Below are positions 571 through 5,735 of a stretch of 34,508 nt of DNA, piece after piece. Numbering within the stretch: position 1 is the stretch's first letter; every line of letters begins with the position of its first letter. Both the position numbers and the translations under genes were made by a program. The DNA comes from Spirochaetota bacterium. Lineage in GTDB: Bacteria > Spirochaetota > Spirochaetia > ARS1246. The notes beneath the pieces are model-generated. The model did no database searches, was not told the origin of the DNA, and saw only the letters and a program-made list of their open reading frames with translations. The stretch lies in NCBI GenBank assembly GCA_024275515.1, contig JAJRYZ010000124.1, positions 1 to 34,508 of the forward strand, written 5' to 3'.

Positions 571-2262
571 TCAGTCCCGACCGTGTTCGAGATCGAAAAT
601 CAGATGCAGCAACCGCCTGGCCTCGGCAAAAGCGTCGAGCGCTTCTCCCAGCTTCTCTCGGAACGCTCTGCCGTCTCCCGTCCCGAGCTCGTCCAAGTTT
701 GCCAGCGTGTCGTACGCGCCGCCGCTTTGGCCGAAAAGGACGCCCTTGAGGACCTTAACCATTCGCTCGAGATCCTCCATTCCGCGGTGGATGATGCTCT
801 CCATCGACCTGTCGGCCCGCTCCATGACGCTCTTAATCCCCGCGTCGCGCTCAGACTTTTTTGCCGGCCGCGCATCGACATTACGAATCTCGGCGCCGAG
901 TTCTCCGTCGTCCCGCAGCGACGCGTCGACCGAACGTATCGCTTTCGACAGCTCGCCCAAACCGTTGAACGCGTCGGTCATTTCCGCACGATTCTGCGGC
1001 TTGTAAAACTCTCCATGCACAAGAATGTTCTTGAGGACGGCGTTGTGCGTCACCCCAAACAAAACCTCGGCAAGGGTCAGGAGGAAAGCGGCCGTTTTCG
1101 GGTAGCGAAACGGCTGGGCGGCGCCGACCGGCCGTTCGATGTATCTTTCCGGAGCCACATTTCGCCCGAAAAGCCGGGCGGCCTGTTCGTGAAACTCGGC
1201 GAGACGCCGCTCCCGGAGAAAAAGCGATATATTCTTGTCGGCGCGGTCCTCCCAGTACTGTCTGAAAACCGTAAACCATTCCTCTCCGCCTCCGAGTTTG
1301 TCCGGCGTATAGGCGGGGTTGCGGTTCATCAGTCGCAGTATATCGACGAGCGGAACATTCCTGCCGAACCGGGTAATCTCGTCAAGCGCAACGGCGGCCT
1401 TCCGAGTTTCTTCTTCGATCAACCCCGCGTATCCGTCGTCCGAACGTCTGTCCCGGTAATGGAACATGATTACCGTTCCGACAACTTCGTCGGCGGGCCG
1501 TACGCCGAGGGAAAAGATGATGTCGGCGAGATCTCCCAGGTCTTTCCGATGCCGGGCGGCGGGAATCTCTCCCACCGGCCCGCCCTCGACGCCGGCGATC
1601 TTCGAAAAGGGAAAAAGAACGAGCTCGTTCAAAAAAAGAAGTCCGCGATAAACGGCATAGAGCCTGGCGCGCGAGTCCTTTTCGATACGCGAAAGCGCGT
1701 CGCGCGTTCCCACCTGCACCTGCTTTCGAATATCGAATTCCGAACCGTCGGCGTTCAACCCCGGCGATCGCGGGTCGCTTGCGCGTTCAAGCATCTCGTA
1801 TTCCGCCGGCAACAGGACGCTGAGAAGAAAAGCGAGATAATCACGCCTCTCCTCGACTATGGCTTGCCGCAGAGGGGCCGCAAGGATCTGCAACCGCTCT
1901 CCCAATTGAAACAGACTTCGAAGAAGCGCCGGCCCCAGAGTCTCTCGCCGATGGTCATACATGCCGGGATACGCGCGGGCGATTTTCCTGCCGATCCGCG
2001 CCAACATGTCTTCGGCGACGAGATCGAGAATATCCCGCTGTACGATTATGTGTCTTAGCCACAAAAAAAAGCGGCGCAACAGCCCGATGCGGCTGTAAGC
2101 CTCTTCGATCGGTCTCTCGTCGGCCTCGTCGCCTCCGGCAAGCAGCAGCGGCGCCTCTCCGGTCGGCTGAAGACTCACCTTCGCAAGCAGGTCACGTCGT
2201 TCTTGCGGCGAGAGGTCGCGGGCAAGCTTGTAGAAGACTTCCGAACCGGCGTCGCCCGGCAT
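571..2262 (-). CDS. Conserved spirochaete-type hypothetical protein (possibly DUF5312-like)
   Basis: Long ORF 571..2298(-). The TTG at 2298 coincides with a TTGACC -35-like hexamer, so ATG at 2262 (MPGDAGSEVFYKLARDLSPQERRDLL) is preferred. Ends 11 nt before the pgeF GTG. The family assignment is only a guess. Confidence 0.7.
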   Translation of the reverse strand: MPGDAGSEVFYKLARDLSPQERRDLLAKVSLQPTGEAPLLLAGGDEADERPIEEAYSRIGLLRRFFLWLRHIIVQRDILDLVAEDMLARIGRKIARAYPGMYDHRRETLGPALLRSLFQLGERLQILAAPLRQAIVEERRDYLAFLLSVLLPAEYEMLERASDPRSPGLNADGSEFDIRKQVQVGTRDALSRIEKDSRARLYAVYRGLLFLNELVLFPFSKIAGVEGGPVGEIPAARHRKDLGDLADIIFSLGVRPADEVVGTVIMFHYRDRRSDDGYAGLIEEETRKAAVALDEITRFGRNVPLVDILRLMNRNPAYTPDKLGGGEEWFTVFRQYWEDRADKNISLFLRERRLAEFHEQAARLFGRNVAPERYIERPVGAAQPFRYPKTAAFLLTLAEVLFGVTHNAVLKNILVHGEFYKPQNRAEMTDAFNGLGELSKAIRSVDASLRDDGELGAEIRNVDARPAKKSERDAGIKSVMERADRSMESIIHRGMEDLERMVKVLKGVLFGQSGGAYDTLANLDELGTGDGRAFREKLGEALDAFAEARRLLHLIFDLEHGRD

Positions 2263-2309: not shown

Positions 2310-2338
2310 TTGACCATTCGCGTCTGTTGGTTTATAAA
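2310..2338 (+). promoter_or_regulatory. Sigma-70-type promoter for the leuA leader
   Basis: TTGACC (2310-2315), 17-nt spacer, TATAAA (2333-2338), immediately upstream of the leader peptide ATG. Confidence 0.65.
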
Positions 2339-2348
2339 TGTAGTCGAC

Positions 2349-2417
2349 ATGAGTTCGTCAACGCTCGGCATCATCATTATTCTACTCACCGCAGACTACG
2401 CGGCCCGAAGGGGATGA
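2349..2417 (+). CDS. Ile/Leu-rich attenuation leader peptide MSSSTLGIIIILLTADYAARRG
   Basis: 22-codon ORF: ATG AGT TCG TCA ACG CTC GGC ATC ATC ATT ATT CTA CTC ACC GCA GAC TAC GCG GCC CGA AGG GGA TGA. Four consecutive Ile and two consecutive Leu codons, followed by an intrinsic terminator, upstream of leuA-cimA. Confidence 0.8.
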   Translation: MSSSTLGIIIILLTADYAARRG

Positions 2418-2443
2418 TCCGAGCGCCATTACCATGGTGACAT

Positions 2444-2477
2444 AAGGCCGTTCCCGCCGGGGACGGCCTTTTTTTTT
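2444..2477 (+). terminator. Intrinsic terminator/attenuator upstream of leuA
   Basis: AAGGCCGTTCCC (2444-2455), short loop, GGGGACGGCCTT (2459-2470), continuing into a run of T; one G-U pair in the stem. Confidence 0.85.
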
Positions 2478-2613: not shown

Positions 2614-4137
2614 ATGGATACATTAGCAGTTTTTGATACGACGCTTCGCGACGGAGAGCAGTCGCCCGGAGCATCGATGAGCATAGAGCAGAAATGCGAA
2701 ATCGCGGCCCAACTCGCGCGGCTCGGCGTCGACGTAATCGAGGCCGGGTTTCCGATTTCCTCTCCGCGTCAGTTCGAGGCGTGTCGGCTTATCGCCGAGC
2801 GCGTGGAAGGTCCGGTGGTCGCCGCTCTCGCGCGAGCGCTCGACGAAGATATCGAGGCCGCCGCGGAGGCGGTTCGAGGCGGGAAGAGGACGCGCATACA
2901 TACCTTCATCGCCACCTCACCGATTCACATGGAGCACAAACTCGGGAAAAAACCGGAGGAGGTGCTTGAAATGACGGTGAGAGCGGTGAAGCTCGCCCGA
3001 TCGTTCACCGACGATGTCGAGTTTTCCCCCGAAGACGCGACGCGAAGCGAAATCGATTTTCTCTGCCGCGTGGTGGAGGCCGCCATCGACGCCGGCGCCG
3101 GCGTTATCAACATTCCCGACACCGTCGGATACGCAGTACCTCACGAGTTCGGCGATTTCATCCGTACTATCAGAGAAAAAGTGCCCAACATCGACAAAGC
3201 GATCATCTCGGTGCATTGCCACAACGACCTCGGTCTCGCGGTCGCGAACACCGTGAGCGCCGTGGAAAACGGCGCCCGGCATGCCGAACTTACCGTCAAC
3301 GGAATCGGCGAGCGCGCGGGGAACGCCGCGCTGGAGGAGTTCGTCATGGCGCTCAAAGTACGTTCCGACATAATGTCGTACCGAACCGGTATCGACACTC
3401 ATCAGATCTACAACACCTCGCGCTTGGTGTCGAACATCATCGGTTTCCCGATCCCGAGAAACAAGCCGGTCGTGGGAGATAATGCTTTCGCCCACGAAGC
3501 GGGAATTCATCAACACGGAGTCATCAAGCGCCGTGAAACCTACGAAATCATGACGCCCGAGTCGGTCGGGCGCGATTTTTCTAACATCGTCCTCGGGCGC
3601 CACTCGGGAATGCACGGATTCAAGAAGCGTCTCGACGAACTCGGCTTGGCGCTTACCGACGACGAGCTTGCCTCGGCATACGCGCGGTTTCTCGAAATCG
3701 CCGATCGCAAAAAGGAGGTTTTCGACGACGACCTCTACGCCATCATAGGCGAAGAGTTGGGTAGACAGGCCGCGCGCTACAGTCTGGAGTATTTCAACAT
3801 CATCTCGGGGAACGTCTCGGTACCTACCGCCACCGTCCGCATTCGGACGGGCGATGAGGTAATCGAAGAGGCAGCGACGGGCGACGGGCCGGTCGACGCC
3901 GTTTTTATCGCGATCGACCGCGCTCTCGGCGTCAAGACCACGCTCAACGAATACACCGTCCAGGCGGTCACGCCCGGGAAGCAGGCGCTCGGAGAGGTGA
4001 CCGTTGTACTTGAAATAGACGGCGAGCACTGCGTCGGCCGAGGATCGTCGACCGACATTCTCGAAGCGAGCGCGAGAGCGTACGTAAACGCACTCAACCG
4101 CTACGAGCTCATCAAGCGCAACGGAGACCGACGATGA
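2614..4137 (+). CDS. leuA: 2-isopropylmalate synthase
   Basis: 507 aa; FDTTLRDGEQSPGASM, HCHNDLGLAVANT, GIGERAGNA, EAGIHQHGV, GRHSG motifs and a LeuA-type C-terminal regulatory domain. SD-like AGGAG upstream. Confidence 0.95.
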   Translation: MDTLAVFDTTLRDGEQSPGASMSIEQKCEIAAQLARLGVDVIEAGFPISSPRQFEACRLIAERVEGPVVAALARALDEDIEAAAEAVRGGKRTRIHTFIATSPIHMEHKLGKKPEEVLEMTVRAVKLARSFTDDVEFSPEDATRSEIDFLCRVVEAAIDAGAGVINIPDTVGYAVPHEFGDFIRTIREKVPNIDKAIISVHCHNDLGLAVANTVSAVENGARHAELTVNGIGERAGNAALEEFVMALKVRSDIMSYRTGIDTHQIYNTSRLVSNIIGFPIPRNKPVVGDNAFAHEAGIHQHGVIKRRETYEIMTPESVGRDFSNIVLGRHSGMHGFKKRLDELGLALTDDELASAYARFLEIADRKKEVFDDDLYAIIGEELGRQAARYSLEYFNIISGNVSVPTATVRIRTGDEVIEEAATGDGPVDAVFIAIDRALGVKTTLNEYTVQAVTPGKQALGEVTVVLEIDGEHCVGRGSSTDILEASARAYVNALNRYELIKRNGDRR

Positions 4138-5735
4138 GCCTGATTACCGTCTACGACACGACGTTGCGCGACGGAATGCAGGGAATCGAGGTCAGCTACA
4201 CGCTTAACGACAAGCTGCAGATCGCGCACAAGCTGGATGAGTTCGGCGTCGACTATATCGAAGGGGGTTTCCCGCTGTCGAACGACAAGGAGGCCGCTTT
4301 TTTTGAACGCGTGCGCCGCGAACGTTTCGATCGGGCGAGAATCGTCGCTTTCGGCTCGACGCGTCGCCCCGGTCGTCGTGCGGCAAACGACGCGCACATC
4401 ACCGCCCTTCTCGAGGCCGAGACGGAAACGGTTACCGTCGTCGGAAAGACCTGGAAGGCTCACGTCACCGAGGTGCTCGGAACGACGCCGGAAGAGAATC
4501 TTGAGATGATCCATGATTCGCTTTCGCATCTAAAAGCCGAGGGTCGCGAAGTTGTTTTCGATCTCGAACATTTTTTCGACGGCTACAAGGACGATCCGGC
4601 GTATGCTCTTCACGTTCTGGAAACCGCGACCGACGCCGGCGCCGACGTTCTCGTTTTGTGCGACACCAACGGAGGCACGCTGCCCGATGAAGCGTCGGCG
4701 ATCATCTCGGCGCTGCCGCAGGAACGATTAAGCAAACTCGGCGTCCATTTTCACAACGATTCCGGAACCGCCGATGCGAACTCGCTGGCCGGCATCCGGT
4801 GCGGCGCCGTCCACATTCAGGGAACCGTCAACGGTTGGGGAGAAAGATGCGGAAACGCGAACCTGTGCGTTCTTGTGCCGAACATCTGCCTGAAGACCGA
4901 CTTCGAAGTTTCGATGGCCGACCGGCTGCGGCACTTGACCTCGCTGTCGCGATTCGTCGCCGAAAAAGCCAACATGATCCCGGAGAAGAGGCAGCCGTAT
5001 GTCGGAGAGGCCGCGTTCAGTCACAAGGCCGGCCAACACGCCGACGTCATCCAGAAGGCGGCGCATTTGATAGAACATATAGACCGGGTGCTCGTCGGCA
5101 ACGAGCGGCGTGTCATCCTTTCCGAGCTCGCGGGTAAATCGACCATCGTCAGAAAGCTCGCCCGCTACGGCGCTTTCGATAAGAACTCGAAGACGGTCGC
5201 CGAGCTGATCGACATTCTGAAAGAAAAGGAACGGCTCGGATACGAGTACGAGGCCGCCGAGGCCTCCTTCGACATCGTCATACGAAAATGCCTCGGACGC
5301 TACCGTCCCCTTTTCGAGCTGGGGAATTACCATCTCGAATCGTACAAAACCGGCGACGTTCCGTCAAAGACGGTGGGGCGTATCTTTCTTTCCTGCGCGG
5401 GAAAGCAGATCATGGGCGCGGGTGTCGGCATCGGCCCGGTCGAAACGCTCGACCGGGCGCTGCGCGACGCGCTCACGCCTTTCGCCGACTTCCTGCAGCG
5501 CATCTCGCTCATCGATTACCGGGTGCGCGTTCTCAATCCGGAGGCCGCATCCGCTTCCAAGGTGCGGGTCTTTATTACTTCTTCCGATCACGAGCACACC
5601 TGGGACACCGTCGGTGTGTCGGAAAACGTGATCGAGGCCTCCTGGGAAGCGATGGTCGACAGCATCGAATACTACTACAACAACTACGTTGTCGAGGATG
5701 CAAAGCCGGGCACAGAGATTAGGCCCGGGGCGTAG
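4134..5735 (+). CDS. cimA: (R)-citramalate synthase
   Basis: 533 aa; YDTTLRDGMQGIEVSYTLNDKLQIAHKLDEFGVDYIEGGFP, HFHNDSGTADANS, GWGERCGNANL: CimA-type member of the LeuA family. ATGA overlap with leuA. Confidence 0.92.
   Translation: MSLITVYDTTLRDGMQGIEVSYTLNDKLQIAHKLDEFGVDYIEGGFPLSNDKEAAFFERVRRERFDRARIVAFGSTRRPGRRAANDAHITALLEAETETVTVVGKTWKAHVTEVLGTTPEENLEMIHDSLSHLKAEGREVVFDLEHFFDGYKDDPAYALHVLETATDAGADVLVLCDTNGGTLPDEASAIISALPQERLSKLGVHFHNDSGTADANSLAGIRCGAVHIQGTVNGWGERCGNANLCVLVPNICLKTDFEVSMADRLRHLTSLSRFVAEKANMIPEKRQPYVGEAAFSHKAGQHADVIQKAAHLIEHIDRVLVGNERRVILSELAGKSTIVRKLARYGAFDKNSKTVAELIDILKEKERLGYEYEAAEASFDIVIRKCLGRYRPLFELGNYHLESYKTGDVPSKTVGRIFLSCAGKQIMGAGVGIGPVETLDRALRDALTPFADFLQRISLIDYRVRVLNPEAASASKVRVFITSSDHEHTWDTVGVSENVIEASWEAMVDSIEYYYNNYVVEDAKPGTEIRPGA

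Follow-up and report, generated by a model that had tools for sequence, protein, structure and literature searches.

A predicted leaderless leader-peptide attenuator upstream of leuA-cimA in a spirochaete and its relatives across the Spirochaetia

The region upstream of leuA and cimA in the window (the whole stretch of DNA that was analysed, a contig of 34,508 nucleotides from a Spirochaetota bacterium) very probably encodes a ribosome-mediated transcription attenuator of both genes that responds to the charging of tRNA-Ile and tRNA-Leu. An Ile/Leu leader-peptide attenuator had been proposed at this position in a preliminary description made from the sequence alone. The reading is now strongly supported by the conservation of the element, by the agreement between leader codons and downstream genes among relatives, and by conserved base pairs in the terminator and the antiterminator.

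The TTGACC-17-TATAAA promoter, the 22-codon ORF and the terminator of that description are all present (Table 1), and the identities given there to leuA and cimA are borne out by NCBIfam models TIGR00973 and TIGR00977, both of which score above their curated cut-offs. The two genes share 4 nt of overlap. The features expected of a classical attenuator can be recognized in the window: a short ORF in which codons for the amino acids of the pathway follow one another (IIIILL before leuA-cimA), an intrinsic terminator (2444-2477) that separates this ORF from the structural genes, and a mutually exclusive antiterminator freed by stalling, the last of these indicated by a conserved register and by modelling and weak in the window alone. 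A further ORF of 47 codons (2493-2636), preceded by a Shine-Dalgarno site (AAGGAG, 2478-2483), occupies most of the gap that separates leuA from the terminator, and it overlaps the start of leuA. The divergent neighbour on the minus strand (571-2298) encodes a DUF5312 protein, and similar-looking divergent ORFs adjoin leuA in several relatives.

Table 1. Features of the leader region and operon in the window, followed by His and Trp leaders found elsewhere (approximate positions)
Feature	Position	Strand	Details and evidence
Promoter	2310-2338	+	-35 TTGACC 2310-2315, 17-nt spacer, -10 TATAAA 2333-2338; sequence
Leader peptide ORF	ATG 2349, TGA ends 2417	+	22 codons, MSSSTLGIIIILLTADYAARRG; translation; similar leaders in relatives
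Regulatory codons	2370-2387	+	ATC ATC ATT ATT CTA CTC (4 Ile, 2 Leu; IIIILL)
Arm 1 of anti-antiterminator	2362-2375	+	Partner 2413-2425; 13 bp, -18.3 kcal/mol
Arm 2 (ORF end and stop)	2405-2425	+	Arm 1 partner 2413-2425; antiterminator strands 2405-2407 and 2410-2416, partners of the terminator 5' arm and loop
Antiterminator 3' arm	2449-2460	+	CGTTCCCgcCGG; overlaps terminator 5' arm and loop
Intrinsic terminator	2444-2477	+	AAGGCCGTTCCC GCC GGGGACGGCCTT and T7; 12-bp stem at 2444-2470; stem conserved
leuA, 2-isopropylmalate synthase	2614-4137	+	TIGR00973, 741 bits, above cut-off; Shine-Dalgarno AGGAG 2600-2604
cimA, citramalate synthase	4134-5735	+	TIGR00977, 625 bits, above cut-off
L314 His leader	about 60-200	minus	MKNTQLIYRHHHHSLFP; before hisG
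L311 His leader	about 1330-1460		...KHHHTHNT; before hisG
L319 His leader	about 940-1080	minus	...KHHHHTSPFERCMRCR; before hisG
L280 Trp leader	about 1215-1410	minus	MKLNQITTAIHFSGSWWPSV and terminator before trpE; TTGAC 31 nt before ATG

The 136-nt leader of the window is strongly structured (-53.7 kcal/mol compared with -36.4 kcal/mol for shuffled sequences; z = -4.3). Its terminator stem has an energy of -21.6 kcal/mol; across the members of the family 98% of cells are paired, with 55 two-sided cells and two-sided changes in nine of 13 pairs. The proposed stem between CGCTCGG-C-ATCATC (2362-2375) and GATGATCCGAGCG (2413-2425) forms as described, with 13 pairs and one bulge. Pairing between the leader ORF and the arm-2 region of the window is better than in shuffles (z = -2.7); taken singly, only 14 of 36 members have a significant arm1:arm2 stem. 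Three leaders of one family (L005, L122 and L154) have, past the leader stop codon and before the terminator, one more small inverted repeat (TAGTAT...ATACTA).

The antiterminator differs from the one first proposed. GCGGCC (2400-2405) can pair with GGCCGT (2446-2451), as had been suggested, giving six base pairs and -8.0 kcal/mol; it was rejected as the antiterminator because this pairing is weaker than that between 2410-2416 and 2449-2455, which can be extended by 2405-2407/2458-2460 (-11.2 kcal/mol), and lies outside the conserved register. In 31 members the family antiterminator is an eight-pair helix joining the last codons and the stop codon to the 5' arm and loop of the terminator, with 88% of cells paired compared with 55-67% when the partner is slid. 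Its covariation is modest (five pairs with two-sided changes, 18 two-sided cells); the paired percentage was matched in three of 500 shuffles and the two-sided cell count in 19 of 500. In 32 of 36 members the native arms pair better than cross-species arms do on average. Within the window alone, shuffled arms pair just as well as arm 2 and the terminator do (z = -0.26) and the fold with a stalled ribosome is not exceptional (z = -0.7), so that the case for the antiterminator is drawn from the family.

Folding with a stalled ribosome, a check proposed in the preliminary description, places the antiterminator in the minimum-energy fold when the stall is on the Ile or the Leu codons and the 3' arm of the terminator has yet to be made. 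A modelled stall gives the antiterminator in 33 of 36 members, the window included, and a modelled ribosome at the stop codon gives the terminator in all 36. Once the full terminator has been transcribed it prevails in every modelled state; the switch must therefore be kinetic, as it is in classical attenuators.

From these elements and their pairings we infer where transcription starts, that the ORF is translated, that the ribosome can stall in it and that read-through follows in vivo. RNA polymerase would start at about the ATG, and a ribosome would load on the leaderless mRNA and trail the polymerase. When either Ile or Leu is short the ribosome would stall on the IIIILL codons, breaking the arm1:arm2 stem and freeing 2405-2416 to pair with the 5' arm and loop of the terminator; the antiterminator so formed would allow leuA-cimA to be transcribed. 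When both amino acids are plentiful the ribosome would reach the stop codon (2415-2417) and cover arm 2, upon which the terminator would form and transcription would end. If the ribosome is absent, arm 2 would be sequestered by arm 1 and the terminator would likewise form.

The element recurs widely in the class. In searches with leuA, 53 of 60 relatives yielded a match; with a strict cut-off, so did 49 of 398 genomes of the class. That class is taken to be Spirochaetia, as the best-matching named cimA relative belongs to a Spirochaetales genome. In most genomes in which leuA is 62-72% identical, an ORF with branched-chain amino-acid (BCAA) codons and then a terminator precede the gene; where leuA sits in an ilv-leuA-cimA operon, the leader and terminator precede ilvB or ilvD instead. 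No region contained more than one leader (both strands of 30 fetched regions of up to 7.8 kb each). Of the 36 members collected, 31 were used to build a covariance model with the terminator as its sole structure, which matched 94 of 398 Spirochaetia genomes, all but one with a single match. Sixty model matches from outside the training set were fetched, and 50 of the 51 with E values of at most 2e-4 lie directly upstream of leuA, cimA, ilvB or ilvD (the ilvD reference was confirmed with TIGR00110). Matches with E values above 3e-4, except L277, which precedes cimA, had no matching leader and BCAA gene and were taken as chance terminators, as was a second match in genome G043. Among 395 genomes sampled from the phylum, the model matched only members of the window's class, and it found no further copy in the window's genome, where it gives one match only and where no leader precedes that genome's own ilvB. 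Recurrence of the architecture upstream of BCAA genes throughout the class is more than would be expected by chance. The related-genome search called for in the preliminary description, which held that relatives lacking the Ile/Leu codons or the terminator would speak against the attenuator, thus had a favourable outcome, although some leuA relatives are without the element (none is present in the 700 nt upstream of leuA in L011-L016, where identity is about 56-60%).

Across 86 leaders the codon content follows the downstream gene, which extends to the family the match between Ile/Leu codons and leuA-cimA noted originally for the window. Leaders before cimA alone (31 of 86; for example MMWRNASTGIIILIISSP) contain 22% Ile and 6% Leu residues, those before leuA in leuA(-cimA) arrangements (14 of 86) 18% of each, and those before leuA alone (five of 86; for example MISMPAKSATFLLLLLPLFL) 3% Ile and 26% Leu. 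Leu content is higher in leuA(-cimA) leaders than in cimA-alone leaders (p = 3e-7) and Ile content is higher in cimA-alone than in leuA-alone leaders (p = 2e-4), both p values ignoring relatedness. Some ilvB leaders are rich in Val (for example MSVYRFLSKVDVPVVVVVVVVVIVLGGYG); leaders with up to nine consecutive Val residues, together with terminators, were seen before ilvB at L240, L244, L252, L254 and L180. Two of the leuA-alone proteins that were tested fall in another LeuA family (NF002991/TIGR00970) than the window's protein, so the match between codons and genes is more than the inheritance of a single gene. In genome G001, from the window's own family, leuA and cimA lie apart, with a Leu leader (L029) before leuA and an Ile leader (L249) before cimA, whereas in the window both genes are in one operon and both types of codon are in one leader.

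The position of the leader start codon has a bearing on how translation would begin. In the window the ATG lies only 10 nt past the -10 box, too close to accommodate a Shine-Dalgarno site; a leaderless or almost leaderless message is therefore predicted from the sequence, with transcription starting near 2345-2349 and the ATG falling at about +1 to +5. TTGAC occurs 29-34 nt 5' of the start codon in 80 of the 85 family leaders with a promoter in view, a count that is somewhat favoured because, among in-frame alternatives, held-out leaders were assigned the start that fits this geometry (mostly one or two candidate starts per leader); of the ATGs in the fetched DNA as a whole, 0.8% show the same spacing. 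Given ordinary promoter spacing, such an arrangement would place the family's start codons at about +1 to +5. Shine-Dalgarno-like bases precede two of 36 leaders compared with 29 of 30 structural genes, and the leader peptides of the family are accordingly predicted to begin at the very first bases of the message. The same attenuator could instead have a leader with a conventional 5' UTR transcribed from an upstream start site. In L005, L154, L230, L243 and L245 the distance from the -35 element to the ATG is 39-40 nt, leaving about 10 nt of 5' UTR, and all start sites in the family are predictions; set against the TTGAC spacing, so rare at random ATGs, and the scarcity of Shine-Dalgarno-like bases, a conventional 5' UTR appears unlikely.

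The nature of the switch itself could also be read differently. The terminator might be constitutive, or governed by a metabolite or protein (a riboswitch, a T-box or an RNA-binding protein), with the Ile/Leu ORF being incidental; the terminator is indeed highly stable, appearing in every fold of the full RNA, and regulation by the attenuator in vivo is a prediction. An incidental ORF would not, however, be expected to change its codons with the downstream gene across families or to supply the antiterminator arm from its own end, and no Rfam riboswitch or T-box was found in 2300-2620 at the gathering threshold or at E values of up to 10, so that we regard this explanation as very improbable. 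Slightly less probable still is that the leader acts on leuA through translational coupling or re-initiation by way of the 47-codon ORF rather than through termination of transcription. That ORF has a ribosome-binding site of its own and overlaps the leuA start, but it lies outside the conserved element, leuA has its own Shine-Dalgarno site, leuA in L003 comes right after the terminator and what is conserved is an intrinsic terminator with a T tract. Attenuation of transcription by a translated leader remains the preferred reading.

Enterobacterial leu and ilv attenuators, like the family described here, combine a leader containing runs of regulatory codons with an alternative terminator and antiterminator, but there the leader is preceded by a 5' UTR that contains a Shine-Dalgarno site, and cimA is not known to be among their targets. 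No Rfam family reached its gathering threshold in the leader region, including Leu_leader, Thr_leader and other leader families (a weak match to Thr_leader scored 15.9 bits against a cut-off of 55), and there was no match to the Rfam T-box model. The ilvBNC operon of Corynebacterium glutamicum has a BCAA leader peptide, MTIIRLVVVTARRLP, without a ribosome-binding site and with transcription starting one nucleotide from the start codon (PMC11857589, citing Morbach 2000). As judged from its description, it resembles the window in its leader, its leaderless geometry and its terminator and antiterminator, for which a three-hairpin model is given, and differs in belonging to an actinobacterium and in controlling ilvBNC rather than leuA-cimA (PMC11857589). 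Candidate ilvB leaders with terminators have been reported in Actinobacteria (PMC1262725). The trpL leader of Sinorhizobium meliloti is also a leaderless attenuator leader, although with Trp codons, before trpE(G) and in an alphaproteobacterium (PMC7298713). The leucine-rich ilv attenuator of Staphylococcus aureus is likewise cis-acting and leucine-responsive in a BCAA operon; by its description it is set apart as acting in a Firmicute alongside CodY (PMC5794164). The proposed mechanism is already known: it is classical ribosome-mediated attenuation, with leaderless precedents in Corynebacterium ilvBNC and Sinorhizobium trpL.

Among spirochaetes, the only BCAA RNA motif found in the openly searchable literature is WRC-14-1 of Leptospira, with seven representatives, all in Leptospira, which was discussed with riboswitch ligands in mind (PMC8632094). 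It shares with the family described here a spirochaete host and, in its case always, a position before ilvB (PMC8632094), whereas our model finds nothing outside the window's class in the phylum sample. The single openly searchable paper that joins citramalate synthase, leader peptide and attenuation concerns valine production by a methanogen. Rfam contains nothing on the RNA family, its spread through the class or its cimA targets, and no description of them was found in the openly searchable literature; within that literature the earlier remark that such control is little described in spirochaetes holds, and the survey of Lopatovskaya et al. (2010) may contain an earlier prediction.

His-codon leaders with terminators were also observed directly before hisG in other Spirochaetia (L314, L311 and L319), two of the three being compatible with the leaderless promoter geometry (one of these with a GTG start), and a Trp leader was observed before trpE (L280). 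We consider it rather more probable than not that Spirochaetia use leaderless leader-peptide attenuation as a standing control of amino-acid operons, class-wide for BCAAs and with cases for His and Trp, in which one RNA scaffold is kept, the codons are swapped to suit each operon, and the sensor includes 5'-end initiation as a conserved element.

The attenuators described here would give a phylum for which few RNA regulators have been described a class-wide and testable family of RNA sensors, in which the codon content of the leader predicts the amino acid sensed by each operon and helps to distinguish CimA from LeuA homologues. The threonine-independent route to isoleucine provided by cimA would be placed under attenuation. 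The family further implies efficient leaderless initiation in spirochaetes, where initiation has to keep time with RNA polymerase, and draws attention to short genes, as yet unannotated, that are within reach of a single covariance model.
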